From Aotearoamyces nothofagi (taxonomy: Eukaryota; Ascomycota; Leotiomycetes; Leotiales; Tympanidaceae), in contig JADDTR010000007.1 in NCBI GenBank assembly GCA_015345905.1, forward strand, positions 868,001 through 932,000: a stretch of 64,000 nucleotides of DNA. Direction: 5' to 3'. The number at the start of each line of letters is the position of its first letter. Within the stretch, counting starts at the first letter, position 1. Positions 21,214 to 43,328 of this stretch are shown here, in pieces. Made by a program: the position numbers and the translations under genes. The notes beneath the pieces were generated by a model that searched no databases, was not told the DNA's origin, and saw only the letters and a program-made list of their open reading frames with translations.

Positions 21214-21360
21214 GATCGGGACAATACGAGCAGGACCAAGACATGGAGCTCCAAAATCAAAGATTATAACACAATGGTAACAATACCTAAGGCTTTTTTC
21301 CGATTTTACTCCATTCCATATCCATTACCATCTATCCCACCACCCTTTAAAACGCCTCTC

Positions 21361-23297
21361 CTAACCGACTGCTAGCCCTTCAAATCCCTTGCCGCTACGA
21401 AGATCAAACTCCCAAACCACGCCCTCAAACTCCTCCCTCCTAGAAACACGCCCTTCCACATCCCCCTCGGGCTTCTTCGTATTCGTCACCAAATTCTGCC
21501 TCATCGTCTGCGGCACCCTTGCGCCCTCGATGTCGAAACCCACCACCACCATTGCGACCCAGGCAACCACCTCAGTAAAGGCCAAGTGCCGTCCGGGACA
21601 GAGATGCCTGCCGCCCCCAAAGGGGATGAAGCCTTGCATCTGCACCCTCTTGGCATCACCGCGGGGCAAGGCGTCGCGACGCAGAAAGCGCCGTGCGTCG
21701 AAAGAGTCCGCGTCTGCCCCCCACGTGCGCTTGTCGTGGTGCAGGACGCCGGCGGGCATCTGGACGACGGAGCCGGTCTTGAGCAGGTACCGGCTGTTGA
21801 GCAGAAGGTCTTCGGTGACCCAGCGCACCGAGGTGCCGGCGTTGACCATGCGGAGGGTCTCGTTGAAGGCGGAGACCAGCAGCGGGCACCTGGAGTCTAG
21901 GAGCGCCACGTCGAGGCTGGCCCGCGTCGTGCCGTCCGCGTCGGTCGTCCGCGTCACGACCTGCTTGACTTCGGTGCGGATCGAGGCGGTGAGGTCGGAC
22001 GAGGCGAAGATGTATATCACCATCCAGAAGACGGTGGGCACGGCGTTTGCGATGGCCGCGAAGAGGATCGCTATTTCGAAACTACCAAGCTCGGTACTTC
22101 CCAGACCGTATTTGCGGGCGGTGCGGGCACGTCCGGCGATGAAGGTGTTGGCGAGCCTGTCTTGTCCCGAGGCGTAGTATTCCGTAAAGGCGGCGCATAT
22201 AGCGGTGCGGGCTTTGTAGGCCTTGCGTGCCGTGATGGATGGGAGGAAATTGAGTAAAAGAAGATCGAGGTCTTCTTCGAAATCCCTAAAGGGAGAAAGT
22301 TGGTTTCTTGTATTGGAGCGATGGGTGGGAGGACGTACCAGACTGCATCGATGAGAGTGGGATCTTTCTCGAGTGGGTTTCCTGGCCCGTAAAGGGTCTG
22401 TGCTGTAGCGGATGTATAGAGGTTCCCGAACCATTCATAGAGTTTAATGGAGTGTGCCGTCGTGTCGATGGCGTTCAGGGAATGGACGAGACTGGTCAAT
22501 ACGCGGGTGTTGGATTCGAGAAGGCCTGGACCAAGAGCCAGAGCGCTGTACATCTCGTTGTGTAGATCATTTAGGTAAGTGCTCTCTCCTTCAACAGTTG
22601 GCACATATTCAATTACAGCCGTAGCTTTCTTGTTTACGTTTATGGCTCTTTGGGTAAACATGATGGAGAAATTTTCGAATGACAGCCCTTTGCTGTTGCG
22701 GATGGCGCTTTGGACAAGTTCAGGTGAGCAGATAATGTAGGTTCTGAAAGAGAATATCTTCAAGGTATATATTGGATAAGCATATTTGGCGCTGTAAGGA
22801 GTATTAACAGAACGTGCTACTGCATTGAGACTTGAGAGAACAAATGCAAAGATCGGCAGTAGTTCTATTCACAAATGAGATGAGACAAGGAAAGATATAT
22901 ATATAGAAGTATAGAAACCTGACACTGAAGAAATCATCCTACCCTCCATTTCCCTCTCACAGAAACTAGAACGCCTCGATAGCAATCATTAGCAAAGCAG
23001 GCTCCCTATTCCCAACGAAACCAAACCAAGTAAAAGGCAAACAACTAACCTCAGCATCTCAAAATACCTAACCTGCCACCTCAGCATGCCGAGCGCATGT
23101 CCAACAAGCGGAATCCCCGACCTCACCAACGGCGGTTCTCCCGGCTCCAACCCCCCATCCGCCGCATAGAACCCCGCAACCGCAATCGCGATGCCCAGAA
23201 CCGCAATCCCGGCAAGCAGAGTGGCGATCCCGTCGTTCGGGAGCGCTGCTGACAGTGTGCTGGTGCTGCGTGGCGAGCCGTATTGTAGTAGTTCCAT
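21361..23297 (-). CDS. Cytochrome P450, CYP7/CYP8-like
   Basis: Exons 23297..23050, 22791..22339 and 22285..21361 give 541 residues; introns are 258 and 53 bp. One membrane segment lies near residues 25-47, followed by PPLVRSGIPLVGHALG. The ExxR pair is ETLR (376-379) and the haem loop is PFGGGRHLCPGRHLA with Cys463. The I-helix reads FAAIANAVPTVFW, which lacks the usual acid-Thr pair and has the A.AN..P pattern of the CYP7/CYP8 branch (sterol 7-alpha-hydroxylases, prostacyclin-synthase-like). The ATG at 23297 is chosen because upstream in-frame codons hold none. The long first intron may hide a small exon, though the join gives a sensible YFEMLSAKYAYPIYTLKIF. Probable substrate: a sterol or lipid, by family. 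Confidence 0.85.
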
Positions 23298-24012
23298 CTT
23301 CCCATGCAACCTGCGTTGCGTTCTAGGCTTAGATAGGGCGAGATGTAGGATAAAGAGAGATATAAGCAGGGGTGGGTGTGGTTAGGATGGAGTGAATAGG
23401 TGCTGGAAACTCCAGTGGATTGGATAAATCCAAGGGATTATTTTATGAGAATACCAACATGTGAAGAAAGAAGATGATGTCTAGATGAGGCTGAGGCTGA
23501 GGCTGAGGCTGACCTCGTATACGGTACTTATATTTATTCGCTCAAGCACGTGCTCTACATCACATGACAAATTACGTCACATCACAAGCCAGATCGGCGA
23601 TCCAAACCCAGCTTTGGCAACCTACGACCTACTGTACAATGAGCACGACAGACAGAATACAACAATCACAGTTCCAAGAGCAGGAGATTTATAGATAATA
23701 TAGATTTGGTATATTGCCCCTAAGACAAACTCCAGCACTAAGTACAACAACAAAAGAACTTCTATGACATTTCTATATGTGGGTTTGCAATAACAACCTC
23801 CATTACGAGTACGAACCTTGATCGACGCGGAACTAATAAGTCCGCGCCTTTCGATCAACACTCCACAATATATACAGTTGTGTTGTCGACTAAAGCGCAG
23901 TTGTCAGACTTCCTCGCAATTGAATTACAGCAGGGTCAACGACGTGGTCTTGAGCGCAACAGAGCACTGGAAGATTTTCACGAGTGACAACTGCTTTCGA
24001 CAAACAATTGAT
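23298..24012. other. Intergenic, P450 promoter and PMA1 3' flank
   Basis: This 715-bp gap holds a GAGGCT hexamer repeat (23487-23511), the 10-bp palindrome AGCACGTGCT (23545-23554) and TTACGTCA, a bZIP/CRE-type word (23572-23579). All three are placed to act on the P450. No gene seen. Confidence 0.5.
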
Positions 24013-27000
24013 CTAGTCATCCTCCTCAGCTTCCGAGGCCTTTGTGATGAGGTGATATCTATCGACACCAGCTTCATCTTGAGAGTGCTCAACGGCAAGC
24101 TTGGACAAGTGACCAATGATATTCTCCATTTGGGTGTCCGCATTGCTGCGTCGGGCACGTCCAAGGTTGTCCAGCCATGAGATGGTGTTGAGGAGGTAGT
24201 ATACAATCGCAATAACGATAGTAACAGCGATCGAGTAACCCCAGATAACAACGACGGTGACAATGCTAGTACGTCCATCTCCACTGAGGAGGTGGTTGAC
24301 AGTCTCAGGGTCGGTGGTCTCGTGGTGACCGGTAAGCCATCCGAAAACACAGAAGAGAGTAGACAGCACGTCGACACCGAAAATGGCGCCAACCAATTGC
24401 CACGATGGGTAAGTGTTACCACCACGGGTGACGAAGATAAGCCAGTTCTCAGTGAGGGAGACTTCCAAGAAGAGAATACCCTGGACGTTACCGAAGTTCT
24501 CGATGATACCTCCGTTTGGCAAGAACATGGAGCCACGAACAACCCAGGTAGCTAGGGCAAGAAGTAGGCCGAGAATGACAGAGATAATCCAGATCTTGGG
24601 TAATTGCCACTCGACTGGGCGTTGTTCGAAATGAGCGTTGTCGTAGGCGACGGCAATGGTGGCCAAATCAGCGAAAAGAGCAAGGAAAACGATTAGATCG
24701 GTGGTGATGGTCTCGTTGATGATGATCATAGAGGTAACCAGGTAGATTTCCATGTGGAGGCAAAGAGCGATACGGTATTGAATATAGGCCTTCATACGCT
24801 GGAAAATTTGGCGAGCAATCTTGATGGCAGAGACAATGGTTGATAGACCAGGGGCAAGGAAAACAATATCGGCAGCGGCCTGAGCAGCTTCGGTAGCACC
24901 CTCGACGGCAATACCACAGTCGGACTTCTTCAGAGAAGGAGCGTCGTTGACTCCGTCACCAGTCATGGCAGTAAGATGTCCACGTTGTTGAAGCATCTCA
25001 ACGACTTGGTACTTGTGCTCTGGGAAAACTTCGGCGAATCCATCAGCCTTCTCAACGAGATCGTGCTGAGTGGTACCGTTGAGGCCACCGTGGATAAGCT
25101 TGTCGGAGTTGTAAACCTTGGTGCCGAGAGCAAGCATCTTGCAAGTCTCCTTAGCAATAGCGATAGCGTCACCAGTAAGCATCTTAACGGAAAGACCAAG
25201 AATTTGAGCTTCAGCGATGGTGGAAGCGGTATCATCACGAGGAGGGTCGAACATGGGAAGCATGCCCAACAATTGCCAGTCAGCATTGCCCTCCTTGACG
25301 GCGACACCGAGGGAACGGAAACCACGACGAGCGAACTCGGTAGACTTTGCCTTGTACATGTCGGCCATTTCCTTGCTGCAGTTGGAGAGGTTCAAGATTG
25401 CCTTGGGGGCACCCTTGGCGCAAGTGAAAGTAACACCTCCCTTTGTGCAAACAGCAGTGATACGCTTAGAGACGGGGTCGAAAGGAGTGAACTTGATAGT
25501 CTTCCATCCCTGCTCGAGGATCTCACGGGCTTTTGGGTAACGCTTGAGAGTGAGAATGGTGACTTTATCAATGGGATCAAGGGACTTGACGTTGTGGGAA
25601 GAAGCCAAAGCAGCGACTGCCATCATCCAGTTGATATCAACACCCTCAGAGACGAAAGGCTCACGGATAGAAAGCTGGTTAGCGGTGAGAGTACCGGTCT
25701 TGTCAGAGCAGAGGACATCTACACCGGCAAGGGATTCAATGGCAGTGAGCTTCTGAACAATAGCCTTCTCCTCAGCGAGGTAAGCGGCACCGACAGCGAG
25801 AGTGGTGGTAGTAACGACTGGAAGACCGACTGGGACACCAACGATCAGGAGAATAAGAGCGTAATGAAGCAAGTTCTGGGACGAATCTTCTGGGGTGGCG
25901 ATCTTGAGGTGGTGGAAGAAGCCTCCAATCCAAGAGAGAAGGATGAAAATAACGACCAAAACCAAGAGAGACGTTCCAATAGAGTTCATGATAGCCTTGA
26001 AATGACCCTGGTCCTTTGCGCCAGTAACCAATGAGGCAGTGCGACCAACGAAAGACATCTTGGCAGAGTGTGTGGCAATAGCATAAGCCTTTCCACGCTT
26101 GCAACCAGTGGTGTAGTAAACGACATCAGCAACGTACTTGTCGACGGCGAGGGATTCTCCAGTCATGGCAGATTGATCGATGGCAAGAAGAGCGTATCCA
26201 GAGCCGTGCTTCTCTCCGTGGTCATCGTCGTCCTCATCTTCGGCCAACTTCTCGGGACCGTCGTGAACTTGAGCCTGGAGTTCAGCAACATACTCTGCGT
26301 AACCGTTGGGGTTGTCGTAAGCGCAAATAAGACGGCAGTCGGCGGGGACAACTTGTCCATCCTCGATGACAATCTGGAAACAGAGTCAATTGAAATGCTC
26401 AAATCTGAAGACGATGGTGGGACTGCTTACAATGTCACCAGGGACGAGTTCTCTCGCCTTGATTTCGATCTCGTGACCATCACGAACAACAGTAGACTTC
26501 ATAGCGATGTCACCCTTCAACGAGGCGACAACGTCGGCGGCCTGCTTCTCCTGATACCAACCAACAACAGCGTTAAGCAAAAGAATACCAATGATGACAC
26601 CGAAATCGATCCAATCTCGGAGACCAGCTGCGAGAAGGACAGCGAGTTCCATGACTAGCACAATGGTCAGCTGATCATTCTCGCGTGGGAAAAGAGGGCG
26701 GGCAGGTTAGGAGACTCACCATAAAGAATAGGGCCAGTGAAGAAACCCAAGAATTTGAGCAAGAGGTTCTCCCTCTCGGTCGTCAGTTCGTTCCACCCCG
26801 TCTTCTTCCGGCGGCTCTCGACGACGGCAGAGCTCAGGCCCTGCTTCATGTCGGTCTGCAGCCATTCGTCGGGCGTCTCGAAGTTGTCGCCTCCATTGTC
26901 CTTGCCCTTCCTCTGCCACCAGTGACGCTTGACGGGCGAGTCATCACCATGCTCCGAAGCTGCCTTCTTGGCTCCCTGGTAGGTCGAGATGTAACGAACA

Positions 27001-27104
27001 AGACCGCTGTACTCGTCTAGGTTCTCCTCCTGCTGGTTTGCAATTCTATCGTTGTGCTCCGACTCCTTTGTGGCATTGCCGTTCTCAAGGTCATGGGCGG
27101 CCAT
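24013..27104 (-). CDS. PMA1: Plasma-membrane H+-ATPase (P-type, P3A)
   Basis: Exons 27104..26720, 26654..26431 and 26373..24013 give 989 residues; introns are 65 and 57 bp. It pumps protons out of the cell and sets the membrane potential used by nutrient symporters. Visible P-type marks are TGES (274-277), IVGVPVGLP in membrane helix 4, the phosphorylated Asp in CSDKTGTLT (about 427), KGAPK for nucleotide binding and MTGDGVNDAPSL in the hinge. About ten hydrophobic segments occur. The protein is some 70 residues longer than yeast or Neurospora Pma1 (about 920): the N-terminus is long and the actuator domain carries an acidic insert with EDEDDDDH. Very even codon use, typical of high expression, leaves long open frames on the opposite strand. 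Confidence 0.95.
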
Positions 27105-27250
27105 GATGGTCGATGGCTGCTGGTCAGCGCGATGGGGCGAAGGAATGTTACCGCGACTGAAGGCCGGATGAGTGCTGAAAGGGAGGGAAGCAGAAATGGG
27201 CGAGAGGCTCGTTCTTATCTTCTTTTTAAGAACGGAGGGACAGCCGGCTA
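27105..27250. promoter_or_regulatory. PMA1 5' leader and proximal promoter
   Basis: The first 150 bp upstream of the PMA1 start are of normal composition and contain a purine-rich AAGAACGGAGGG block. Beyond about 27,250 the sequence turns into the GC-rich repeat island. Confidence 0.4.
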
Positions 27251-27435
27251 CTCAGGGCGCTAGGCCGAGTGGGGCGTAGGGACGGCGTGACGGCGTGTTG
27301 GTTTTGGGGGGGGGGTGTGTGTGGTGTGTGTGGGAGGGAGAGAGAGAGAGGGAGCTTGGGTGAGGTCGATTGAGCTCGAGGGTGTTTGCGTAGTGGGTGG
27401 TAGGGTGGGTGGGAGGGTGGATGTGTGCGTCCAGG

Positions 27436-27458
27436 GCCAGTCCAGTCCAGTCCAGTCC
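27436..27458. repeat. CCAGT pentamer repeat
   Basis: About four tandem copies of CCAGT, followed at once by a CAGCAG/CAGCGT-rich stretch up to about 27,520. Confidence 0.8.
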
Positions 27459-27664
27459 GGGAGCCAGGCCCAGCAGCAGCGCAGCGCAGCAGCGTAGCAG
27501 CGTCGCAGCGTAGCAACGCACGCCGCGGGCCAGGCTAGGGTGGCCCGAGCAGAACCGCGGAAAATGCGACATCGGGGGCCGGGCGGGCGCCTGGGAGCTC
27601 GCTCGCTCGCTCGCTCGGGCTTAACGGCACGGCGGGCAGCGCAGGCGACGCCGCGGCTGGCTGG

Positions 27665-27705
27665 TGGTGCTGGAGTGGTGCTGGAGTGGTGCTGGAGTGG
27701 TGCTG
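27665..27705. repeat. 11-bp tandem repeat TGGTGCTGGAG
   Basis: Three full copies and a partial fourth copy in direct tandem. Confidence 0.85.
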
Positions 27706-28129
27706 CACCAGGCCCGGCGGCAGCGAGGCAGAGGGCATCGTGGCCGGGACGAGGGCGGAGGGCTTCGCTGCAGCAGCAGCATCAGCATCACAACAATTAT
27801 ATCGCGCATACCAGCGAGCTGCAGGCCTGCCGCAGACGACGGCGCGCGCGGCGGATCCGCCCTAGCGACGGGCCAATGGGGCGGCGGCAGGGCGGCAGGC
27901 GAGATTCGACGGCCCCAGCGGGCCCCCGATGCGGGCTAGCGGCGGCGCACCGAGGGTGGTAGCGCGGCGCCAGGGTCAGCGACTGGATTTCCCCATTAGG
28001 CAAGACTCGGGCATGGTTCGGCAGATGGGGCCACCTGCAGCGTCGGCATCGCGGCACGCTGGCGCACAGGGCCCGTGAGCGGGATTAGAGGAGACCAGAG
28101 AGCAGAGTAGTGCAGGGCAGCGTATGGCA

Positions 28130-28300
28130 GAGTAGGGCAGAGTCGAGCAGAATGTACATACAGTAGAGTGTACGTACATACAGTAGAATGTACAGTAGAT
28201 TGACAGTAGAATGTACATACAGTAGAATGTACAGTAGAGTATACAGTAGAGTGTACAATAGAATGTACAGCAGAATGTACATACAGTAGAGTGTACAGTA
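28130..28300. repeat. Degenerate ACAGTAGA / GTACATACAGTAGA array
   Basis: Words of the type AGAATGTACAGTAGA and GTACATACAGTAGA recur about ten times with small changes in spacing. Each holds GTAC and half of a TACTGTA palindrome. Confidence 0.8.
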
Positions 28301-28494
28301 GATCGACGACGACGACGATGACGATGATACAGAGCAGGTACAGGTTAGTTACAGGGCGTGCGGTAAGAGAGAAGCTGCCTCTCGACGTACAGGCCCAGTT
28401 CGGTTCCGCAGCTGCGACAATGGCTGCGAGCGAGGAAGAACAGCCTCGCTGGAAGCACCGGCTGCAGCAATACAGTGAGTGAGTGAGTGCAGCG

Positions 28495-28850
28495 GACAGT
28501 GTATACAGTGTATACAGTACAGTGTACATAGTACAGTGTATACAGTACAGTGCAGCATACACAGCACGGTACTGTACTGTAACTGTATATCCTGCACACT
28601 GGAGGAGGTACAATACAGTCGGTCGGTACCTGAGGCGCACTGCACAGGGCTGCACTGCGGCACTGCTACCGCAAAGTATGCACTCACAGTACACACAGTA
28701 CAGTACATACAGCACTCACAGCACTCAATGCGCTCACAGTACAATACGTACACCACAGTATGTACACACACCACAGTATATACACACACTACAGTATATA
28801 CACACCACAGCACTCACCCACAATACACCACAATACATACCACACAAGAC
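28495..28850. repeat. TACAGTA / CACAGTA-rich stretch
   Basis: Dense TATACAGT, GTACAGT and CACAGTA words with intervening ACACAC runs. Little else is present for about 350 bp, apart from a more complex spacer near 28,620-28,680. Confidence 0.75.
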
Positions 28851-29060
28851 AGCAAAAAACGCCAAGTTGCCAAGCCAACCCCAGGTAACAAGCAACAAGC
28901 ACAGGAGGGAATGCATTACCAGCACGAAGGGCCCAGTATACAGGTACAGCAGGGTCCATTAGGGCGGGTCCCCCTGGGGGCCGTAGCGAAGCGAAGCGAG
29001 GCGCTTTGCTGCAGAACACCCTCTTTCTCGGAGAGCGCGAGAGAGAGAGAGAGAGGGCGC

Positions 29061-29115
29061 AAGAGTAAACAAGAGTAAACAAGAGTAAACAAGAGTAAAC
29101 AAGAGTAAACAAGAG
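29061..29115. repeat. Decamer tandem repeat AAGAGTAAAC
   Basis: Five perfect copies of AAGAGTAAAC and a half copy; a GA run precedes them and a 22-base poly(T) follows 24 bp later. Confidence 0.95.
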
Positions 29116-29138
29116 CAGCAGCAGATGATGGCATGGCA

Positions 29139-29160
29139 TTTTTTTTTTTTTTTTTTTTTT
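29139..29160. repeat. Poly(T) tract, 22 bases
   Basis: An uninterrupted T run. It marks the point where the plus strand changes from ACAGTA-rich (left) to TACTGT/TGCTGT-rich (right). Confidence 0.9.
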
Positions 29161-31821
29161 GGTGTCTGCTCGCTTGTACTGTAGGCTGGGCTGGGCTAGT
29201 TGCTGCTGTGGTATAGCTATAGTTGATGCTGGTAACTATACTCTGGACGGACAGCACGGCACGGTACGGATTGCAATTTCACGGTATGCATCTGCCAGCG
29301 CTGGCCTTTACGTACTGTGTTTACACCGTCTTGCTCTCTAGTGTGTGTGTATGTGCTGTACTGTGTTTTTGCTGTGTTTACAGTACTGGCTATATGCATT
29401 GCTGGGTACTGGATAGCTTTGCTGTGGCTGCTGTGCTTGCTGTACCTACGCCCTCCCTATACTGCCTATCCAGACGTGCTGGTGCTTACTATACGTCATT
29501 GCAAGTTACTGTACTTGCTGTGCCTGCTGTGCGTAGTCATTCTGCTTTGTTTACTGCACTTGCTGTGCGTCTTCAATACCGTCCCTCTCCAACACCGTCC
29601 CTCTCCAACACATCCTTCTATACAAGCAAAGCGCAAGCCAGAATAAATCCGTCTTGTAGTACTGCACTCTATACTATAGATTACAGTTCAGTTCTGTACC
29701 ATACCGTACCGTATAATCCACAAATGCACACTACTGTACATGCAAATACCTACCTACAGTGCCGCACAACACCCACCAACCAGCCACTCTCCCACCCACC
29801 CCTCCAGCCCAGCAGCACGACCCCCCTCCCCCCCCCTACCGTACACATTTCCCAAGACCCTGCAAACAAACAAAACCATGCCGCCCTGTCGTTCGTTCGT
29901 GTCGGGAGAAGAAGAAACAGGGACTAGTGAGGAAAAGCTTAGCATGTTTTTGGCACTGCTGTGCGGTGCAGTACTGTGCAGTACTGTGCAGTACATTCGG
30001 GATCGGGGGGAGGCAGAGGTCTGAGACATGACATGACGAGGGGGGGGGAGCGAGATGAGATGAGATGGGCGAGTTGGCATGGAGAAGGGAGGAGGAGAGG
30101 AACTTGGTTGATGTCCCCTACCGGCGCACGCACGCGCGCACTGGTTTTCTTATTATGTTTATTCTATTATATTTTATTATCTTATATTCTATTTACATAC
30201 CTGTTTCGCGGTTTCGTGGTTTTGGTTTTCTTTGATTTTAGAAGGGGGCGTCGGTGATGCGCTCGCTGAAAGGGACGGGAGGGGGGGGGGCGCGAGATGC
30301 AAAGTACCAGTACCGCACGGTGCCGCACGTGCAGGAGATCTGCCCTCCCTAATCTGACTGACTGACTGGCCTGGCAAGCCTCATCTGCCTGCCACTCTCC
30401 CTCCTGCTATTCCTATCCATCTCCCCCCGTTTATCTCCCTTTGGCTTTCCTCTTCTCTTCTCTCCCCCCTTTTGCCTCTTGCCGCCGACTCCGAGGCTTC
30501 TTCCCCTTCCCTCTCGCAAAGCCAGCCAGCCCAGCCCATCCTCATCCTCATCCTCATCCTCATCCCACACAGCAGCAGCAGGAGGAGAAATTCTTCCTTC
30601 GCCACACAACAAAAAAAACCCCATATTTGCCGGCTCGCGTCCCATTTCCTTTCGCCTCTCTTCTCTTTTTCGCTGGGATGGCTCGACCCGTACGTACAGT
30701 ACAGTACAGTACAGTAAGCAGGCGAGCCCGGCTCCGGCGGCACCTCTTCCTCCCCCAGTCTGCCCTATCTCTCTAATCTACAGACCTGTAATCTGTCGCA
30801 GAGCCGGCCGGCCGACAGCGGGATACTGCTTTTCTGTCCTGTCGCAGATGGCGGGAGACGGAGGGCTCGACAGAGGCAGGATGACGTGGGTGCCATCGCC
30901 CATCCCGAGCTTCCGCGGGTGCAGGAAAAAAAAAGAGAGATCCCCTCCCCCCCCTGGTCTCCCCCCCGAGCCTCAGCGTCGCGGGTTGCGGTGCCTGATC
31001 CTGGACGGGACCTCGTAGACCTGTGTACAAGGCGTGCGGCTTCTCCTTATTCTGCAGGCAAGGCAAGAACGGGCAGGCCGGCTGCGTGGTTTATCGGGCT
31101 GCACAGTACATACTGTACAGTATTGGTGTATCGGACTCGATATCCACCACGCTGCAAGGCGCCTCGCACGTAACTGTGCTGTATGTACGGTACATTTAGC
31201 ATTGCCCGTATACGGGGACAGCTGCCGAGGTACTCATGCTCTACTGCCTTTCTTAATTGCGATATTCTCGCTGTACCCACAATCCACAATGTGCTATTTG
31301 TATGTACTATCCGGTATCCATCCATACCGTCCATACATACGGTCCAAGTGTACAGCCCAAGTGGTGCCTCCGTCGTCCGTGGTCCGCCGTCCGCCGTCCG
31401 CCCAGCACCAACGAAAAGTAAGCTTTTTATCGTGACGCGCTTGACTCCCAGGTCAGGCCAGTCTGTACGCACTACGCTGCCCTACTGTATGAGGGATTAA
31501 TCAGTGGCCGCGGTGGGAGCAAGATAGCTGGCAACCCTTCGGCGGGCTACCGTGGGCTTGCTCGGGCTGCTAAGTTCTACGCCTGTTCTAGCATGCTTCC
31601 CTCGGCCTGTGGTTGATGCCATCCCATCTGTGGCTGCTGAATCGGTCCATGGCCCACGTCTCATGATGTTTAATGTTTAATGGGCTCTGGCTGCGGACGG
31701 TAGCGCAGGGACGGCACTGTACAGCACTGGCTATCCCTCTCGCTGCGGCCCCATTAACTGCTCATCCCTCGCAGACTCCCTCCTGTATTACCGCCGCGGC
31801 CACGGCAAACAGCCGCCGCAG

Positions 31822-31860
31822 CAGGCCCAGCAGGCCCAGCAGGCCCAGCAGGCCCAGCAG
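31822..31860. repeat. 9-bp tandem repeat CAGGCCCAG
   Basis: Four perfect copies plus CAG. Confidence 0.9.
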
Positions 31861-31973
31861 AGAGCCCGACAAAAGCCGCACAGATTCGAGGCAAGGAGGC
31901 ACGAGAACAGGGCCCTCGTCCAACCCCGGCCTGCTCTGCTCTACTCACAGTACTACACTACACTTGCAGTACT

Positions 31974-32001
31974 ACTGTATACTGTATACTGTATACTGTA
32001 T
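31974..32001. repeat. 7-bp tandem repeat ACTGTAT
   Basis: Four perfect copies of ACTGTAT, another form of the TACTGTA theme of the island. Confidence 0.9.
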
Positions 32002-32344
32002 ACCTGCGCACCGATGCAAATCAGCGTTTCGCCATTTGCAGTGGCCCCCCGTCGCTCAGTCTCCCATCCGCCTTTTCCGTTCGGGGCCCAGATCGTAAGC
32101 GTGCATAGTTCGTATCGGAGTGGGAAGGGGGGAGATTGCGTCGTGGGCTGGCTGGCTGGCTGGCTGCTCAGCAGCAGGGCGCTCGAGCGAAAAAGCCTCA
32201 CTGTGCTCTCTGCCTGCTCCTGCTCCTGCTGCCAATCTTACTCCAGCAATGCGGGCTGGGCTGGGCTGGGCTGGGCTGGCACGGCCGGCCGGCAGGCAGC
32301 CTTTGGCAGATTTGCAGATTCGATTAATAAGGAGCAATGACGCC

Positions 32345-32401
32345 GGTGACGACGATGATGATGGCGATGATGATGGCGATGATGATGATGATGATGATGA
32401 T
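32345..32401. repeat. GAT/GAC trinucleotide repeat
   Basis: About 18 units of GAT with a few GAC or GGC interruptions. Confidence 0.85.
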
Positions 32402-32570
32402 TGTGCTATTCCAGTACTGCATCGAGCAGAGAAGGAAATGAAATGTCGATCGAGAGGCCGACTACTCGCTGTCCCTGGCCTCCTACCCTGTGCTCGTATG
32501 TACTGTACTTTACTGGGGACTGGATGGGGCTCGGAGAGACAGAGAGGGACGATACAGCCGCAGCGTTATT

Positions 32571-32607
32571 GCGCTGCGCTGCGCTGCGCTGCGTTGCGTT
32601 GCGTTGC
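32571..32607. repeat. GCTGC / GTTGC pentamer repeat
   Basis: Seven pentamers in which the first half reads GCTGC and the second half GTTGC, as if a C-to-T variant had itself been duplicated. Confidence 0.8.
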
Positions 32608-32753
32608 GCCAGCGCCTGTGCGCGTACCTGTGGGTGCTTGTGGGTGCCCTGTGGATGCCCTGTGGGTGCCCTGTGGGCGTGGGCGAGGGCGCTTCCCACA
32701 GCACCTACAGAGTCGCTAAAGGGCCGTCGAGCATTACGTATAGTCCACTATGT

Positions 32754-32789
32754 ACGTCCACTACGTCCACTACGTCCACTACGTCCAGT
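32754..32789. repeat. 9-bp tandem repeat ACGTCCACT
   Basis: Four copies; the last ends in AGT instead of ACT. Confidence 0.9.
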
Positions 32790-33064
32790 GCTACGCAGTT
32801 GCTACCCGGTGCAGCCAGCATTGCGTAGGGCATTCTTGTATCGCATGGGGTATGTGTATTGTAGTGTACTGTATATGCTTCGGCGATGCACCATCCGTCT
32901 GCTATCCATCTCTCTAGTGCGGCCGAGTCTACTACGTGCAGTACGTATGTGCAGTGCAGGTAAACAACAGCAACAGTTGCTGGCAGCAGCCGGGTAGGGC
33001 GGGCATAGCCCAGGGCTGGCAGCGTGTGGCTACGGGCTGTTTTGTTGCAGGCGGTAGGCAATAG

Positions 33065-33300
33065 CGAGAGGGTAGAGCTGTAGGGTACGGGATACAGGTA
33101 CAGGTTATAGGGTACTACTGTAGCTATAGTCTACAGGCTATAGGTTACAGGCTATAGGGTATAGGGTACAAGCTACAGGCTGTTGCACCCTACAGGTATG
33201 TAACTGGCGACAGGCTGTTACAGGCTCCAGGGTACAAGCTACAGGCTCTTACACCCTACAGGCTACACGCTACAGCGATAGGCCACACGCTACAGGCCCC
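33065..33300. repeat. Diverged TACAGGCTATAGGGTA repeats
   Basis: Words such as TACAGGCTATAGGGTA, GGTACAAGCTACAGGCT and ACCCTACAGG recur with shifts for about 235 bp. The array is older or less regular than the other tandem runs. Confidence 0.75.
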
Positions 33301-36300
33301 CCTCTGCTGCCCACGCAGGAACCGCAGACACAGGTGCAAAAACATGCAAGCCACAGACGGCCAGCCAGCCAGCCAGCCAGCCCTGTAGGTCCCCGTCGCT
33401 CGCCCTGCAACGCCCTGCAACAGCCCTGGCCAGCCCGTCTCTCCCCCTCGCTCGCCGTCCAGCAACGGCACTGCTCCCTCGCTCTCCTGCCTGCCTGCCT
33501 GCCTGCCTGTCTACCCGCACCGCACAGTAAAAAAATCCCGCAGCGCGCACGGGATCGCTTATCTTATCTTGCGCAAGCCCTTCCCTCTCCTCTCCTCTCC
33601 TCTCCTCCCCCCCCCCGGTCTGTCTCCAAACCCGCAGGGAATAGGGGTCTGTCTCGCACGCACGCAGAGGGGGAAAAGAAAAGAAAGAAAACATGATGGG
33701 CGCGCTGCATATGCGCTGCGTCCCATCCCATCCCATCCCAGCCCAGCCCCCCGTTCGCACCGACATTGGCATCGGCAGGCGGTGCGCACCTGCTCTGCTG
33801 TGCAGTACAGACAGTACCGTATCTGTATCTGTCTACTGTATCTGTCTACTCTCTACCGCATCTGCCCAATCTTGCCGCATGCACGCAAATCGGGGCAGCG
33901 CCGTAATAGATTTGTCTAATCCCGCCCCGCCAGACCCGACCCGACCCACCCCCTCCCAGTCCCCGTCCGCTCGGACGGCGCTGCGGAAGAACGACGCCGA
34001 GCTCCGAGGTCTGCGCTGGGCGGCCGCCGCGACGAGCTCTTGGCGGCCTTCTTCTTCTCTCGCAGGCCTTGGGCTTCAGCCACAGGGGGGGGGGGGTTGT
34101 ACTGTACGTATCGTGCCGTATCGTCGCGCTGTGCTGTGTTTTGTATGTGCTTGTACAGCGCGGCGAATTGTTGCGGTAATCCCCCATCCCCTGTCCCTGT
34201 ATGCAATGTACGTGATCGCTGTTCCCTGCTGTTTGATCGCCGGTTTGAGGGAAAAAAGACGTTTCTCGTCTACGGAGGGCCTCCGCGCCCATCTCATCTC
34301 GTTGCCTGCCCCGGGCCGCGGCTAATGAACGAGCGCATGGATGGAGGGAGGGCATTGAATAAAGAAGGTGCTGTGATGGTCGTGTACGCACTCTGCCGTG
34401 CTGGATAGCCAGGATGGGCATGCGGCACGGTGCGATGCTGTACGGTATACGCATTCTACTATAGGTCCAGCTACTTGGTATTGGTGTTGGTACAGCACAT
34501 CTCACCCAATAGGGCCCCGTCTCGAGGTCAGCAGCAGAGTATCCGATGCAATAATATCACATCCGTCCGAAACCGAGGTAACTTGCTCATCCATCCAGGT
34601 CTTTCTGAGTAGTAATCAGAGAGGGAGAGCCTGCTTCCGTGCGAGCCATTTCCCGGACCCAAAACACCCAATAGTCGATGATTCACTTTTGCTGCAGCTA
34701 TTCCGGGGTTCTTGGCAGCGCAGGTGGGAACATAACCACCTCTCGCCTTCCGCTATTGCCGTTGCTGTACATCTCTCCAAAGATAGATAGAGAGATAGAG
34801 AGAGAGAGCGAGCTAATGGAGATAGATGCCGTACTGGCTTACTCTACCTGCCTTTGGTGACGCTGCGCTGGCTCTTCTTTTCCTTCTTCTCGCTCCGCTC
34901 GTCCCTTCCTCGCCCTTGGCAGACGTCTGGGTGGGTTCTCCCGTGCATGGTGCCTGCGGTCTAATAATAATAATACCGTTAAGAGGTCGAGTGGGAGATG
35001 GCATAGCCGTCGCTCATTTGAGAGAAGCACATATCATAATTTAAAAGCGCGGCATTCGGAGCGAAGTCGTCTGCCTCCCCGTCTCGCCGCCTCGGCCATC
35101 TTCCTCTGATTCCGCCTGCACGCACCGTGTGCGGGAGGACAGGACGGAGATTTCCCATTCATGCACGGTGTGGGTCCGATGTGGCCGTCCTATTTCAACT
35201 CGCTCTGCATCGCATCTGCTTTTTCTTGGGCTGCAAGCTGTACATTCTTTGCAAAGGTTGTTTGTTTACAGCTGCTTCACGCACGCCGCTTGTGCTTCTA
35301 GCGCTTGGGAAGGGAGTCAATCTCCGGGTGCTGGTAGTCTCCATGGCGGGTAGGTAGGCCAGGCACAAGACCGAGAGCAAGAACAAGAACAACAACAAGG
35401 CTCGCATGGGCAGGCCAAGACTCGAACTTTCCTTCTACCGCCTACTGAGATCTCAAGCTTCCCTTGCTCTACCATACCACCGTGTACTCCAAGTCCCTCT
35501 CTCTCCCTCCATCTAACAAGCAACTCGAGACTCGACCGCGCGAGACCCCTACCCGTGCCTAGCTCGCCCTGAGACTCGGGTCTCTTGTTTCGAGGCGCCT
35601 CCAGCACGACTAACTCCGGGAAACAGGCGGCACAGCACGAGGAGATCCGTTTCATCCTTCCGCCCTACAAGGCTGTGACACATCACGCCTTACGTACAGT
35701 GCCTACTGCACCTCCTCCGTCGTTTCGGTACAATACATGGGACGCAAACGACTGCCTCGCCGCCTCGCCGCGCTGTGTCTCTGTGACATGCACGCTTCTG
35801 GTGCCGTTTCCCAGCATATTACGTCTTGCTCGTGACGGAACGGGCCTGCGCCGTTCACAGCCAGACTCGGCCTCGAGGCTCGCGGCTGAGGCGAAATGGG
35901 GTGGGAAAAGGGTCGGTCGGGATGGAATGAGACAAGCGAGCGAGAGAAAGAAAGGGTCCCAGGGGTCCCAGGGGCCCTCCCGCGTCGAGTCCGGCCCGTC
36001 GAGGCCTGAGGCCTGAGGCCGCCAGCGCTGGGCCATTGTGGCTCGCGCAGCCGAACACCACACCACGTGATATTACGTACCCAGGACGAGAGGCGAGCGT
36101 CGCGAGAGTGGAGCGCCCGAATCCGACCAGACAGCCGCCGCGCGACCAGCGTCCGCAGGACGGACGACGGCCGACGGACGACGGGCAGCCCAGGCCAGGC
36201 CAGCGCTGGGCAGGTCTCCCTGTGCCTTATACCCGGGCGTGCTCGTTGCGCCGTCATATCGCCCACCCGCGGCCTTTGCACCTCGCCCGGCGCAGCCAGA

Positions 36301-37317
36301 ATAGAATCAAATAAACAAAACTCAAATAAACAAAACAAACAAAACAAAACAAAGCCATGCCGGCGTGGGAATGGGCCGGCCGTCCTTTCCACTCGCCACT
36401 TGCTGCACTTCCTGCGCTTCCTTTGCCCCTCCAGGGCCGATCTGGCGGGTGCGATAGCAGCCCTCCTCGAAATGCACCCTCTCTGTACTGGTAGTATTGC
36501 AGTGCAGTGCAGTACTCACTGCCGCCGCTGCTGCCCGTGCTAGCCGGTCGCCTAGACATGCAAAGGACGTACGCGCCCCGGCCTTCTTTGGCCGCCTCCC
36601 GATCCCACCATGCGATCCATCTGTTTCGCCACCCGACATCTCCCTCACTCTTAATCGAGGGGACTTGGGATTTCGCCGAAACTCCCTCCGCGAGCCGTGT
36701 TGCCGTGCGTTCTAGAAAAGGATGGAAACGGCTATCTCTGGTTCGGAAGATGCCTCTTGGCCGCGCAGGGCAGGACGGAGTACAGCACGCAGGACAGCAC
36801 GCAGGACAGCACGCAGTACAGCCCACGGCACGGTATGTACGGATGCGAGCGCGTCGTCTGTCCGATCTGGGTTTCTTGCATCTGGCCGGTAGAAGTTCGC
36901 GGAAACCGAACATGGCATTTGTGCCTATTCGGGTCGGGGGACAATGCCTATCACGCAACGAAAACACTCTTTGGAAGCGCGGATGGAGCTCAGGATGTGC
37001 GTAGCAACCTCTTCTCTCCTCGACCAGGCCGGTCCGGTCAAAGGCGGCAGGCCTACGCTCCCAGGCCCACGGCTGGACTACTCTACAGTACTTCCCAGGC
37101 CCGCGGCTGGAGATCTGTTCCGTCCTAGGTGCTGTACTGTGCTGTGCTGTAGGACGATCATGCGAGAATCCCTTCCCTGAAACCCCCTGGTGCGTTTGCT
37201 GTCTTTGCCTGGTCGGCTCGTTCCTCCCGGCCTGGAGAGAGGCGGCCAACCGCGTGCTGCTGATGGGGTCTGTCAAGGCGCTCGAGGGATTTAGTCTATT
37301 CGGGGCCCATTTTAGGA

Positions 37318-37349
37318 GTATGCATCGTATGCATCGTATGCATCGTATG
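37318..37349. repeat. 9-bp tandem repeat GTATGCATC
   Basis: Three and a half copies, followed by GTATGTACC. Confidence 0.9.
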
Positions 37350-38280
37350 TACCGGATCGTATGTATCGGGCGGCCGTCGTGGTGGTCAAAGGGCACTACC
37401 CGTCAGGCCATCGGGAAATGCCCTATACGTAAGTCGAGGCATGGGCCGCTCTGGTGCGCTGGCGTGCTCCCCTAAGCGTCCCTGGGCCTCCCTAAACACC
37501 GCACCGCAGCGTAGAACTATCCCTCTCGCCCTCGAAACCTACTTTCCCTGCTAGCCAGCACCTACAGTACAGCTAGCACGCCGTCTAGCACATACGACTT
37601 CCCAATCCTTAGGTTACCAATTTACCGCCAATTCACCGCCTGTGCATCATCTCATCTCGCCCTGTTCCCTCTGCCCTGCCCTGCCCTGCTCTGCCCTCTT
37701 CTCCCTCCCTCTCGCTTGGCACCACGTGACATATCCTCAACCCATCCCACCCATCGCTCCATCGACTGTTCGTTTTCAAATAACCTTTTTTTTTTTTTTT
37801 TTTCCCTCCTCCCTCTCTTCCCCCTTCCTCCTCCCTCGTCTTCCGCGCCGTATGGTGGTCCCGCACGATGACGTAAACCGCAAAGTATAAACAACAGAGC
37901 AAACCCACCCGCCGCCGCCGCTGCTGCACAGCAGAAGGCTCTCTCTTGCCCGCAAAAAATAAATTCCGCGGTCGAGCAACAGCTGATGCCGCATCGCGCC
38001 CACTTTCCCATCCCACCCCCCCCTCATCCCACGTTTTTCCCAGAGACGTCCTGTGCGCTGCACTTATTGCGCTGGCTTTAGCGCGGGGAAGCACGAACGG
38101 AGGGCCGTATGTTCTTTTTTTTGCTTTGGTTCGGTCTGGAGGTATGATGGATAGGATGGGATGGGATGGGATGGGACAAAATGATTTAACGGCTTGCTGT
38201 AATTTTCTTTTGAATGCGAGAGAAATCGGGGGTGCATCTTTTCTTTTAAATTCTGATATCGATCTGATCTCATCCAATCC

Positions 38281-38308
38281 AATTCCAATTCCAATTCCAA
38301 TTCCAATG
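38281..38308. repeat. Hexamer repeat AATTCC
   Basis: About four and a half perfect copies. Confidence 0.9.
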
Positions 38309-38500
38309 AATCGACCCCAAGCCGACTGCGCACTTCATTTCCTGCTCCCTCTCTCTCTCTCGCGCTCGTGATTGATCCGTCGCCATTGAATTGAGTGAGC
38401 GAGCGAGCGAGCGAGCCTATCTCTAATACTGCAGCAGCACGACACAAACGGGCCGAGATGCAGACATCTGACTTTGGGGGGGGAGAGGAGAGGCGCGCCG

Positions 38501-38570
38501 GACTGGACTGGACTGGACTGGACCGGACTGGACCGGACCCGGCTGGGCTGGGCTGGGCTGGGCTGGGCTC
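38501..38570. repeat. GACTG then GGCTG pentamer repeats
   Basis: A run of GACTG units with some GACCG variants passes into a run of GGCTG units. Confidence 0.85.
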
Positions 38571-38832
38571 CTGCGACGTTCAGACTGGGGGAGGGAGGTG
38601 AGGAAGGCGTTGGAGGAGGGGGTGGAGGGAGGGAGAGGGAAGGAAGGAAGGAAGGGAGGGGACGGAGCGAGTCATGTGATGTATATGATGTCATGTGACG
38701 AGCGGGGATCTCTTTATCTATCGTTTGCTGGGTTTGGATTCGGCGCAGCTGAGTATAGTATTCAGAGGCTCCTCGACGGTGGTGCTGCGATGGTGCTTTG
38801 GGTTTTTCCCTTTTTTTTTCTTTTTCTCTTGC

Positions 38833-38862
38833 GTACGTACGTACGTACGTACGTACGGTACG
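38833..38862. repeat. GTAC tetranucleotide repeat
   Basis: Six perfect GTAC copies followed by GGTACGG. GTAC is self-complementary, so the run can fold on itself. Confidence 0.9.
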
Positions 38863-39216
38863 GTCGGCGCGGGGTGCGGGAGGGAAGAGGCGGGGTACGT
38901 GCGTGCTCGCGGGAGGGGCTGCTGGCGAGCTGAGAAGAGCGATCTGTCGGGGCAGGGTTTTGGGAGGCTGGAACTGGGATTTGGGATTGTGGGAGTTGGT
39001 GTGGTGGGTGGGCTTTTGAGGGGGGGGTTGGAAATGGAAATGATATGATATATGGTATGGTATGGATCAAATCGATGGTTTTCTTTTTGGGGAGGGGTTT
39101 GGTTCTGGTTCTGGTTCTGGCGAGTGGATAGGATGATTATATATTATTAGTGGTAGGGATTTAGTAAATATATATATATTTAACTATATATTTAAATATA
39201 TTATAATAAACAAGAA

Positions 39217-39284
39217 GAATATCAGAACAAGACGAATATCAGAACAAGACGAATATCAGAACAAGACGAATATCAGAACAAGAC
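39217..39284. repeat. 17-bp tandem repeat, four copies
   Basis: The unit GAATATCAGAACAAGAC is repeated four times without change. It directly follows a TA-rich block (39,137-39,210). Confidence 0.95.
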
Positions 39285-39748
39285 GAACATGAGGATTAGC
39301 AAAAAAAAATATGAATCCTAGAGCCCTATCGTCTTTCCATCCGGAGAAGAGTCTCGTGTCGGGCACCGAAACAAGAAGAAGACGAGAGGCTAGAGGAGAG
39401 ATAGGAGAGGGACGGCTTGCAAGATCGGGATCATGCTTCACGACTGGCAGCGCGGAAGGTCTGTTTTCCGATGAGGGAATGAGACGGTGCTGGCGTTGAG
39501 GGGCTGTGATAAGCGGCTCTTCGTCACGGGGGCGCGTCTCCTTTTTGGCTCGGCGGGGGGTGGTAGCTGGGATGGTATATTGAAGAGGTAGAGGTGGAGG
39601 TATGCGATTATGGTATAGGTCGAGTGAGATATGTATGGAACGGCGACAGGAATACCCTTGGCTTAGCTCCTTGGGTCCTTTCGTGTAGTTGTACTGCCGC
39701 TCTGCCTGGAGGACTCTTCTCTCTTTATCTTCCATCCGTGGCCAGCAA

Positions 39749-39864
39749 ATGCTTCCCGGTTCTACTCTCCTCTCTTCATCTTTCGTCCTTGTCAGCCAAT
39801 GCTTCCCGGTTCTACTCTCCTCTCTTCATCTTTCGTCCTTGTCAGCCAATGCTTCTCGATTCTA
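39749..39864. repeat. 50-bp tandem duplication
   Basis: A 50-bp unit beginning ATGCTTCCCGGTTCTACTCT occurs at 39749-39798 and 39799-39848 with no difference seen. A diverged third start follows to about 39864. The identity points to a recent event. Confidence 0.95.
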
Positions 39865-41638
39865 GATCTCTCTGTTTCCATGTCCTTGTCGCTCCGGACA
39901 CTGGGTTGTAATAGCGTCGTGCATTATTCATACAGGGAGAGTCTGGTAGAGTTCTGTAGATGGGTATAGTGGAGTTGTTTTGGGATGAGGAGATCATCAG
40001 CTGGTAGACACGAGTCTGTGGGCACTTGTCGTTAAATTTGCGTAGTGCACCGTCTACAGACTTGGGTCTACCGGTTCGTAAAAAGGTATTTAGAAGGGAG
40101 GGGGAGGTGGATCTAGAGATGTTGGAGACTGTAATCGGGCCGAAGAATTTATAGAGGACGGGAAGGTTGTAGGATTGGTGATGAAGAGTTTACTTATTTG
40201 AGAGGGAAGGAAGAGATGAGAGGAAAATGGTAGGTGCTATAAAATATGATAGAAGTGACTCGAAACTGACTGAGAACGGTGGCGGGATATTTCAAGAATC
40301 AAGCGGTCGGGGTAGGCCTTTATGTTATAGACAGTAAATCTCCTAGTAGCCTAGTAGCATTGAGGCTATAAAAATAGACCACCCAGTCTTTGCCGACTTA
40401 AAATTAGTTCTCGTATGTTATATAAAAATATCTATACATTTCCGTAACGAGAAGAGACTATGTAGGCTTCACACCGGAGCTGCAAAAGTCGACACAGAGA
40501 ATTCACCAGTGCGCTGATTCTACCAGCATTCATCTAAAGCTGGAGAGAATTCTAGACACAAAATAGCTAATCCCAGTGATATTCAAAGAGAGTGTTCAAC
40601 TTGGAGTAGTTCTTGAATATTATTAGAAAGCTTAATCTATATTCATGTTCTGCGCGTCTTCAATCTCCCTAACGTCGATCAAATAGTAGCCAAGTCATTC
40701 AGAATAATATTATGAAGCTTCTAGACTTTCGGGCGTAGGAGATCAATAGGAGACACGATAGAGTTGTCGCTGTCTGTTGCGACTGAATTTCTAGCGTTGG
40801 AGGCCACTAGAACGTGCTCGAAGACTAGGGCAAAGAACTTTTGCAAGCTAGAGAGTTGGCCTATTGGTTTCGATATAGAAAGTAGCTGGGATCAGTGCCT
40901 TGGTTGGGCGATACGACGCTGTAGCTGTATAGCTGACGACAGCCAGAGAGGAGATAGAAGGCTGATGAAAAATGCATTCTGAATTTGAAGAGAGTAGAAT
41001 AATGAAATTATATTCGAAATATGCAGAGATGAGCTTGAGCGCTACCAGAAGAAAATAAAGCTACTTATATCCAAAAGTGGTAGACATTCTGTGTCTGCTT
41101 ATTTTGATCTTTGTTGAGATCGACACATCAACGCCGTTATAGTCTATCATAAGAATTGTCGCGCTTAGAGTTAGCTGACGATGAGCTCTAGATACTTACA
41201 GTTGATGTAGCCTCCACATAAAACATAAGAATTGCCATATATATCATCCTAAAGGCGTTTAATAATATATATTCGGAGCTTTGAGTGTGAGTTGATCCTG
41301 GCACGTGATTACCCAGTCGAAAAGTCGAGTCTCTGACCCATATAGGTTGAATACATAGAATCGTACATATATAAGAGTATTTCGCAAGGACTGTAGTCTG
41401 CCAGCGTCGCTATGATGGGAGTGACTCGAGCTCGAGACGAACAATCTCCGATAACTTTTCCGTGACGGGCTGGCAGCTCAGTTTCCGTGTCCTAGGAAGT
41501 TGGCAACTAGCAATTGGCAATCGGCAACCGGCATATGGCGACTTGTCGACGAGAATGTCAAGCTTCTTTAACTGGATATTTGTCCAGCGGCATAATGATC
41601 AGTCGGTGAGGACGGTGCGGACGTTGTGGACGTTGAGT

Positions 41639-41647
41639 CGGAGTCCG
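41639..41647. promoter_or_regulatory. Inverted CGG site (CGG AGT CCG)
   Basis: CGGAGTCCG, an inverted pair of CGG triplets as bound by Zn2Cys6 regulators, lies 156 bp upstream of the MFS start. Short, so chance is possible. Confidence 0.25.
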
Positions 41648-41802
41648 AATTGCGCAATTATCGCCGATCATTCCCACAGAGCGCTAGACCGTAAATGGCT
41701 AATACATGTGTATTACTCGGATTTCCATGTCGATGCAAGTTGCAGATTTTCCATCATTTCCACTCATGTGGAAAAGCTTCGTGGAGGTGAAGAGTTAGAA
41801 CA

Positions 41803-43328
41803 ATGGCTATCCATCCATATCTACACGGGCTCCTCGAAGAGCTGGGAATAGTTTCAATCTATCATTCTGCTGGTGACACTAAACTGCTCTTTGCTCAACG
41901 TTTCGTACGTCTCTTTGCTTATGGAGGAACCACACTCATTCTCGCCTTATATCTTTCCGCCGTGGGAACATCGGATCCAAAGATTGGGCTGTTTATGACT
42001 TTGACCCTGTGGGGCGATGTATTGATCAGTCTTGTGTTGACGCTCTTCGCCGACTCTCTGGGTCGAAAGTCGATCCTCTGCGTTGCAGCTCTTTTGGTGA
42101 CTGCAAGTGGGTTTGTATTTGCTCTGAGCCAAAACTATTGGGTTTTATTAGCGGCTGCTATATTTGGAGTCATAAGTCCTGCGTGTGTAGTATTATCTCT
42201 GTCAGACTTACCCAATACTCACGTATTATAGCGGGAACGAGATTGGACCCTTCCGAGCCATTGAAGAGTCCGTTATTGCGCATCTATCTCACGCAGACGT
42301 TCGAAGTGACATATACGCTTGGTATACTCTCGTGGGACAAGCTGGGACTGCCTGTGGGATGATGACATGCGGATGGGTTGTTGAATATCTTACTTCTCTG
42401 GACGGATGGAACAATGTGCGAGCATATCGAGCTATCTTTTTTGCTTATGCCGGCTCTGGCATACTTATGTTTTTCTTGTCATATCTCCTTAGTAAGGGGA
42501 TCGAGGCCGAAAAGAAAGTTCCACGTCTCGATCCAGAAGAAGCGCCGTTGTTAGTAGACGGATCATCTTCGACTACTTCGACACAAAATCTCAATAAGAA
42601 ATCGTCAACAAGGTCTTGGCTTCCTTCCATTACTCCGGAGAGTATGGCAATTGTGGTCAACTTGTGGATCTTGTTTGGGATAGACTCCTTTGCTTCAGGA
42701 CTGACACCAACGTAAGGAAACTTTCATTATTCATAGGATAACTGAACTAATCTGGTCAAGGTCGTGGGTCACGTACTTCTTTAAACGCAAATTCAGCATG
42801 GAGGCTGGCGAGTTAGGATCACTCTTCTTTACCACTTCTATGATATCGGCTGCCTCTACACTCGTGGCGTCATCCGTAGCCAAGCGAATCGGTAATATCA
42901 AGGCAATGGCATTCACGCATCTTCCGTCAGCCATCTCATTGATTCTTATACCTTTCCCGACGCAACTTCCGTATGCTATGTTATTCCTTATTACTCGTTC
43001 ATGCACAGCAATGATGGATGTTGGACCACGAACAGCCTTTATAGCTGCTGTGGTTCTGCCTAGTGAGCGAACAGCTGTCATGGGTACATTGAATGTTGTC
43101 AAGACATTCAGTCAAAGCATTGGCCCTTCAATCACTGGTATATTAGCCGCGAGGCAGCTATTCTGGGTGAGTTTTGTGGCAAGTGGGTCATTGAAGGTTG
43201 TTTATGATTTGAGTATATTGGCTGTATTTGTCAAGCATGTTAGTAGAGAAGACAGAGCAAAAGCAGAAGCAGCGGCGGCCGCGGAGGATCAGGAGCAAGA
43301 GGGGCGAGACCTGAGTGATGAGAGCTAA
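41803..43328 (+). CDS. Major facilitator superfamily transporter
   Basis: Exons 41803..42182, 42232..42711 and 42761..43328 (introns of 49 bp each) give 475 residues. It has about twelve hydrophobic segments. The loop between helices 2 and 3 reads GDVLISLVLTLFADSLGRKS, the MFS signature with the ADSLGRK element. A polar middle loop rich in Ser, Thr and Glu separates the two halves (about 235-270). The cytosolic C-terminus is charged and Ala/Glu-rich. GPFRAIEES and the MDVGPRTAF segment recall fungal MFS proteins of unknown substrate. It is probably a plasma-membrane or vacuolar carrier driven by protons, as is usual for the family; the substrate cannot be told. Confidence 0.85.

Follow-up and report, generated by a model that had tools for sequence, protein, structure and literature searches.

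A GC-rich, microsatellite-dense island upstream of a putative Pma2-class proton-pump gene in Aotearoamyces nothofagi

Aotearoamyces nothofagi is an ascomycete of the Leotiomycetes, and the window considered here is a stretch of 64,000 nucleotides of its genome (assembly GCA_015345905.1, contig JADDTR010000007.1, positions 868,001 to 932,000 of the forward strand), in which positions are counted from the first letter. Its gene content and the style of its introns likewise point to a filamentous ascomycete. The main element of interest is an island at 27251–39130 that is rich in guanine plus cytosine (GC), densely packed with microsatellites and noncoding as far as tested. Like the other features for which no strand is given below, it is not assigned to a strand. 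On its left lies an intact gene of 989 codons for a plasma-membrane H+-ATPase (24013–27104, minus strand), probably of the Pma2 class, with three exons (26720–27104, 26431–26654 and 24013–26373) and two introns. The next gene to the right, which bounds the interval on that side, encodes an MFS transporter (41803–43328, plus strand, start codon placed by eye); the pump and the transporter are therefore divergent and share a common interval of 14.7 kilobases (kb). A preliminary description of this DNA had given the gene-free extent as about 12 kb; the absence of genes holds, but the true interval is longer, approximately 27105–41802. Its remainder, between the island and the transporter gene (39200–41802), is AT-richer and gene-free, with 45% GC at 39.2–41.8 kb and no Pfam match there in six frames.

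The island contains 57.4% GC, while its flanks are close to 46%. Counted per kb, GC ranges from 49 to 67% across 27–39 kb and from 40 to 52% over most of the window, with further peaks at 20–22 kb and 58–60 kb. A segmentation with two breakpoints, fitted on 22.5–50 kb, returned a block of 57.6% GC at 26760–39040 (sides 49.2% and 46.1%). When the same segmentation was fitted on 14–56 kb, the block widened to 20220–39040 (55.9% GC, against 46.9% and 45.9%), and the rise in GC is therefore not confined to the gene-free part. The right composition border is sharp, at 39.0 kb, and the window contains no N bases. To the left, the genes for an SDR and a P450 (20193–22434) have a third-position GC of 0.80 and 0.73, respectively, and extend the GC-rich domain to approximately 20.2 kb. 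Among the other frames, the pump gene, taken in two parts, has values of 0.57 and 0.74, and the remaining 12 frames examined fall between 0.42 and 0.60.

The arrays of the island are equally distinct from those of its surroundings. Tandem Repeats Finder loci (score of at least 30, merged) number 77 and cover 23.5% of the island, at 6.5 per kb, while 20 dinucleotide shuffles of the island yielded a mean of 1.7 loci. Elsewhere, three flanking stretches have densities of 0.50, 0.56 and 0.76 per kb, and the stretch at 57.5–60.2 kb has one of 1.85. Perfect arrays with units of 1–7 bases occur 67 times (5.6 per kb) versus a mean of 1.2 and a maximum of 3 in 50 shuffles, and four other stretches of the window contain 5, 3, 2 and 1 of them (11 in total; 0.1–0.4 per kb). 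Judging by these counts against shuffles and against other stretches, the island is statistically extreme, far beyond chance. The most frequent unit lengths among the 67 perfect arrays are five bases (18 arrays), four bases (16) and one base (16). Of these arrays, the 46 whose units span 3–7 bases fall into 37 unit classes, which agrees with the initial impression of dozens of short tandem repeats; these are not, however, entirely unrelated to each other, since eight of the classes are found more than once, for instance GGGCT at 32253 and 38541. GTCCA and its complement likewise form arrays at 27437 and 38500. Among the 120 overlapping rows reported by Tandem Repeats Finder, 36 show a 100% match without indels and 87 have periods of 4–12. 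This pattern would be expected from many separate, partly recent, local slippage events.

Individual arrays illustrate the range of forms. A degenerate array with periods of 12–64 bases and TACAGTAGAATG-like units occupies 28146–28302, whereas a perfect array of the 10-base unit CAAGAGTAAA, repeated 5.6 times at 29060–29115, is an example of an unmutated one. The right end of the island (38001–39130) holds the highest count per kb, with 13 perfect arrays starting in 38001–39000, together with five G-quadruplex (G4)-type motifs on the plus strand (starts 38158–39006), which stop at the composition border. Direct repeats of at least 30 bases in 27105–41802 comprise four families in tandem, two of which sit outside the island at 39.2–39.9 kb, and a single dispersed pair, which is weak. 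Just past the right border, in AT-richer DNA, there are arrays at 39209–39287 (17 bases repeated 4.6 times, 98% matched) and 39713–39864 (50 bases repeated 3 times, 90% matched). Inverted repeats, among the 25 of 106 pairs listed, are 22–33 bases long and result mostly from the pairing of simple-repeat arrays. Satellite DNA with one unit throughout is ruled out by the 37 unit classes among 46 arrays, and a transposon remnant by the lack of any transposon domain (Pfam, six frames) and of long terminal direct repeats.

The existence of hidden protein genes in the island was considered and rejected. The preliminary description had proposed a homology check for such genes, and it found none: Pfam searches of the six frames (with X at stops) gave only four matches, with E-values of 0.036–0.47, far under the cut-off. 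No tRNA was detected by ARAGORN in its bacterial setting, which could miss an intron-bearing fungal tRNA. There was no Rfam match at the gathering score nor at E-values up to 1, and a megablast search against plasmid and phage records returned nothing. A codon model was trained on 16 of the window's 19 Pfam-supported frames (7170–7772, 18073–18729 and 42191–42712 were left out), and the coding windows were scored with the tested gene excluded from the training. Its median per codon is -0.23 in the island (over the 75 windows, of 97, that contain an open frame) versus +0.09 in 144 coding windows, and 12 of the 97 island windows reach the coding range above its lowest tenth. The island (33 windows) has a median three-base periodicity of 0.79, close to the 0.83 of the AT-rich gaps and far from the 3.32 of coding DNA (46 windows); a value above 4 was obtained in one of the 33 island windows, which starts at 32165 and contains a GAT array, versus 18 of the 46 coding windows.

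It is important to note that the island does contain long open frames. Stop-to-stop frames of at least 150 codons number 30 and those started by ATG nine, whereas local dinucleotide shuffles give 6.0 ± 2.2 and 1.7 ± 1.3, respectively; the longest frame, of 382 codons, was matched in none of 200 dinucleotide shuffles. These frames are spread over all six frames, with three to seven in each. Under models that keep longer words, the mean number of long frames rises to 18.1 (order 2, global), 22.7 (order 2, local) and 19.6 (order 4, global); the observed 30 were reached in 0, 7 and 1 of 200 sequences, respectively, and the 382-codon frame in 16, 77 and 21. The excess is mostly due to the scarcity of the stop trinucleotides as words (TGA z = -8.4, TAG -6.9 and TAA -5.8), and the small part that exceeds the models may be due to the arrays. 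It is concluded that the island has no ordinary protein gene, although it may hold a small novel peptide gene. The segmentation, the array counts and the domain and coding tests thus agree that the gene-free, GC-rich repeat island first described is real.

The preliminary description had also considered unmutated, GC-rich repeats to be unusual in intergenic DNA of an ascomycete, which is normally AT-rich. Repeat-induced point mutation (RIP) leaves a signature of high TpA/ApT and low (CpA+TpG)/(ApC+GpT), and with the customary cut-offs for these indices no such signature was found in 13 partly overlapping stretches, flanks included (substrate index 1.08–1.38). The product index of the island is high (1.02; 1.46, 1.10, 0.89 and 0.68 in its successive quarters), possibly as a result of its TAC/GTA words. 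Therefore, the flanks are indeed AT-richer but not RIP-mutated, and escape from this process does not single out the island.

Outside the arrays, the island is enriched in a particular family of words. After masking of the arrays, TACAGTA was observed 14 times (0.5 expected) and GTACTGTA eight times (0.1 expected), while the observed/expected ratios for the remainder of the window, likewise masked, are 2.6 and 1.3, respectively. Words related to TACAGTA are densest at 28–30 kb, with 26 and 15 merged sites per kb, and they are also present elsewhere in the window. G4-type motifs number 20 in the island, versus a shuffle mean of 0.8. Two places have a layout reminiscent of promoters. The stretch 27105–27430 (minus strand) is the probable proximal promoter or leader of the ATPase gene; it carries a polypyrimidine tract on the coding strand (a pure purine tract of 23 bases on the plus strand, at 27332) and a G4-type motif at 27395–27417 (plus strand). 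At 30000–30565 there is a possible bidirectional-promoter-like layout, with a purine tract on the left (30081, 20 bases), an AT-rich centre (30150–30200, placed by eye) and pyrimidine tracts on the right (30445, 29 bases; 30497, 19 bases). Sites of the CATTC type, presumably those of AbaA, had been considered in the array at 28.15–28.30 kb. This candidate was dropped because the word is not enriched outside the arrays (ACATTC seen once, 2.5 expected).

The nature of the neighbouring pump bears directly on the interpretation. The best solved relatives of its product are the Pma1 pumps of yeast and Neurospora. Identity to Neurospora PMA-1 is 443 of 827 aligned residues (53.6%), below the value of more than 60% reported for members of the Pma1 cluster (PMC4437780). 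The actuator domain contains about 40 extra residues (residues 221–264 of the gene model face three residues of yeast Pma1), the C-terminal part about 17 more, and the tail is about 20 residues longer. In addition, the regulatory C-terminal Ser-Thr pair is replaced by Ala-Val, and Ser699 is a Cys (YRIALCLH, in the fifth transmembrane segment). These features correspond to those of the ChPMA2-type H+-ATPases of Colletotrichum, Magnaporthe and Leptosphaeria, for which an actuator insertion, the absence of the Ser-Thr pair, the Ser699 to Cys change and less than 60% identity to Neurospora PMA-1 are described (PMC4437780). One difference from ChPma2, and possibly a second, can be mentioned. Glu805 is unchanged here (SLTENW), while its change to Gln was reported for ChPma2 itself and not as a class-defining mark; and an additional N-terminal stretch is reported among the Pma2-class/ChPma2 features (PMC4437780), whereas here the alignment begins at residues 68–73 of the model and 66–71 of the solved pumps, with no clear extension. 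Judged from its sequence, the pump bears marks of the Pma2 class and is not PMA1.

In Colletotrichum higginsianum, the class-1 gene is highly expressed in all samples, while expression of the class-2 gene is barely detectable in conidia and low in mycelium but strong in appressoria and in planta (PMC4437780). The premise that the island adjoins PMA1, which ranks among the most strongly expressed genes of fungi, is therefore not supported, given the identity and the class features, and has been dropped. The codon usage of the pump, whose third positions are 9% A, 32% T and 39% C, nevertheless suggests good expression at some stage. Third-position GC is 0.71–0.72 in the first 150 codons of the gene and 0.51–0.67 further on. 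A scan with the pump as query found no match in viral contigs and a single bacterial relative, with 24% identity, in bacterial and archaeal contigs.

A second upstream region in the window resembles the island on a smaller scale. A bZIP transcription-factor gene, presumably kapC-like, has exons at approximately 58650–59294 and 59455–59918 (bZIP_1, E-value 1.2e-10 over 80 residues across the intron). The DNA upstream of it (57300–58650) has raised GC (54.5%), as the island does, and likewise carries words of the TACAGTA type, with seven merged sites, or 5.2 per kb, versus 0–3.6 in eight other gaps.

Among the four ideas put forward at first (an expanded regulatory domain, a long noncoding RNA, a replication origin and a recombination hotspot), the expanded regulatory domain appears the likeliest. 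The reading preferred here, to which we give a probability of about one half, is that the island represents an upstream region of exceptional length, belonging to a regulated Pma2-class gene and expanded in place by slippage within a GC-rich domain (20.2–39.0 kb). The core promoter would lie in the proximal few hundred bases. The distal 11 kb would be open chromatin, in which poly(dA:dT), polypyrimidine and G-rich tracts keep nucleosomes sparse, and could hold dispersed elements for the stage-specific control of the pump, the best candidates being the TACAGTA/GTACTGTAC word family. Replication slippage in such open, structure-prone DNA might continually create new arrays, so that the island would grow and turn over in place through many events, each leaving a short array of a mostly different 4–12-base unit. 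The surrounding GC-rich compositional domain also spans the two genes at 20–22.5 kb. The island would be ordinary in kind, probably a long promoter region, and extreme in degree. If it is indeed regulatory, it would constitute an extreme fungal control region built of microsatellites and would make slippage-driven regulatory growth at particular genes testable.

This reading has circumstantial support from the class of the gene, the similar upstream region of the bZIP gene, the enrichment of words outside the arrays and precedents in the literature; the lack of coding signal and the diverse, often perfect array units also speak for it. Several observations weigh against it. In the masked island, none of the words CCAAT, GCCAAG, GCCAGG, AGGGG, CACGTG, TGACTCA, ACATTC and CATTCT, which we take to be motifs of known regulators, is enriched more than 1.4-fold. 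The GC-rich third positions of the SDR and P450 genes show that such a composition also occurs outside the upstream region, and the DNA upstream of the bZIP gene differs from the island in array density, as it contains no perfect array. Finally, the insertions upstream of ChPMA2 described as having an effect in C. higginsianum lie within approximately 515 base pairs of the start and give no pointer to a 12-kb control region; a screen of this kind is, however, hardly informative on distal DNA.

Known systems offer partial parallels. The genome of the ascomycete Leptosphaeria maculans is bipartite, with AT-rich and GC-balanced blocks. As in that fungus, GC-rich blocks alternate here with AT-richer ones, but the AT-richer blocks of the window carry genes recognizable by their domains and lack the RIP signature. 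Yeast promoters with tandem repeats usually carry a single array or a few, close to the start, unlike the 67 perfect arrays that the island displays over 12 kb. The likeness to those of Saccharomyces cerevisiae resides in the short tandem repeats of the upstream DNA, which in yeast have been reviewed as disfavouring, and are said to exclude, nucleosomes (PMC3899988). Noncoding DNA of several kb upstream of a regulated gene is described for WOR1 of Candida albicans, with about 6 kb of bound upstream DNA and a 2-kb leader (PMC2924316), and for ros1 of Ustilago maydis, a regulated gene with a very long upstream region (PMC4917244). In contrast to both, the present case concerns a proton-pump gene and an interval of 12–14.7 kb that is GC-rich and packed with microsatellites. 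No comparable long, repeat-rich upstream region of ChPMA2-type genes was found in the available text of PMC4437780, nor was one upstream of any fungal H+-ATPase gene among the literature matches listed, which lie mostly outside subscription journals.

The main rivals of a regulatory upstream region are a recombination hotspot and neutral growth. The hotspot is the strongest of the alternatives, if a doubtful one. Recurrent breaks and their repair would raise GC by biased gene conversion and produce arrays by slippage during repair synthesis, regulation being incidental. The enrichment of GC in coding third positions, both in the SDR and P450 genes and in the opening 150 codons of the ATPase gene, favours this view, as do the excess of G4-type motifs over shuffles and the sharp border at 39.0 kb. 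On the contrary, the highest third-position values do not adjoin the island but are found 5–7 kb from it, most of the ATPase gene remains at 0.51–0.67, and expression-driven codon choice can account for the ATPase values; moreover, in Zymoseptoria GC-biased gene conversion is reportedly lacking or extremely weak (PMC5844332). A hotspot would offer a natural setting in which to test GC-biased conversion in a filamentous fungus.

Equal weight, and thus a similarly low probability, is given to neutral growth, by which slippage would have enlarged DNA in a GC-rich domain unopposed by selection, only the proximal promoter being of importance. The mostly different array units, with no evident common architecture, and the absence of enrichment of known motifs fit such an origin. 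The other stretches of the window, gaps included, are nearly array-free, however, and noncoding status alone therefore does not create arrays; the persistence of TACAGTA words outside the arrays also argues against it. Even if neutral, the island would still show strong differences in array density among stretches within 64 kb.

Somewhat less probable than either of these is a bolder proposal, that the island is a locus-specific repeat-generating domain. In this case, an open regulatory region with self-propagating TACAGTA/GTACTGTAC words and G-rich tracts would drive repeated slippage or break repair, and the control region of the stage-specific pump would expand and be rewired far faster than the remainder of the genome. 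Less probable again is the presence in the island of one or more long noncoding RNAs that control the pump gene, or of a long, spliced mRNA leader of that gene with the same role. The purine and pyrimidine tracts switch strand and the layout at 30.0–30.56 kb resembles a divergent promoter; nonetheless, no Rfam match was obtained, and intron-like motifs number 3 and 3 versus 6.0 and 7.1 in shuffles, in a scan that is itself weak, as gene-bearing stretches do not clearly exceed their shuffles (one gave, for example, 8 and 2 versus 6.9 and 5.2). An assembly artefact or a foreign insert joined beside the pump gene is very improbable, for in spite of the sharp shift in composition at 39.0 kb megablast finds nothing similar among plasmid or phage records, the left side runs into an intact gene whose first codons are likewise GC-rich at third positions, the window is free of N and words of the TACAGTA type occur elsewhere in it.

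Two further observations concern other parts of the window. A 29-base unit repeated twice (96%) lies at 55890–55946, inside an AT-rich gap. Upstream of a gene that starts at approximately 12.7 kb, the DNA at 12001–12720 is pyrimidine-rich and promoter-like, with a strong excess of C over G (skew of -0.35 for 12001–13000) and TC tracts near 12520–12560.

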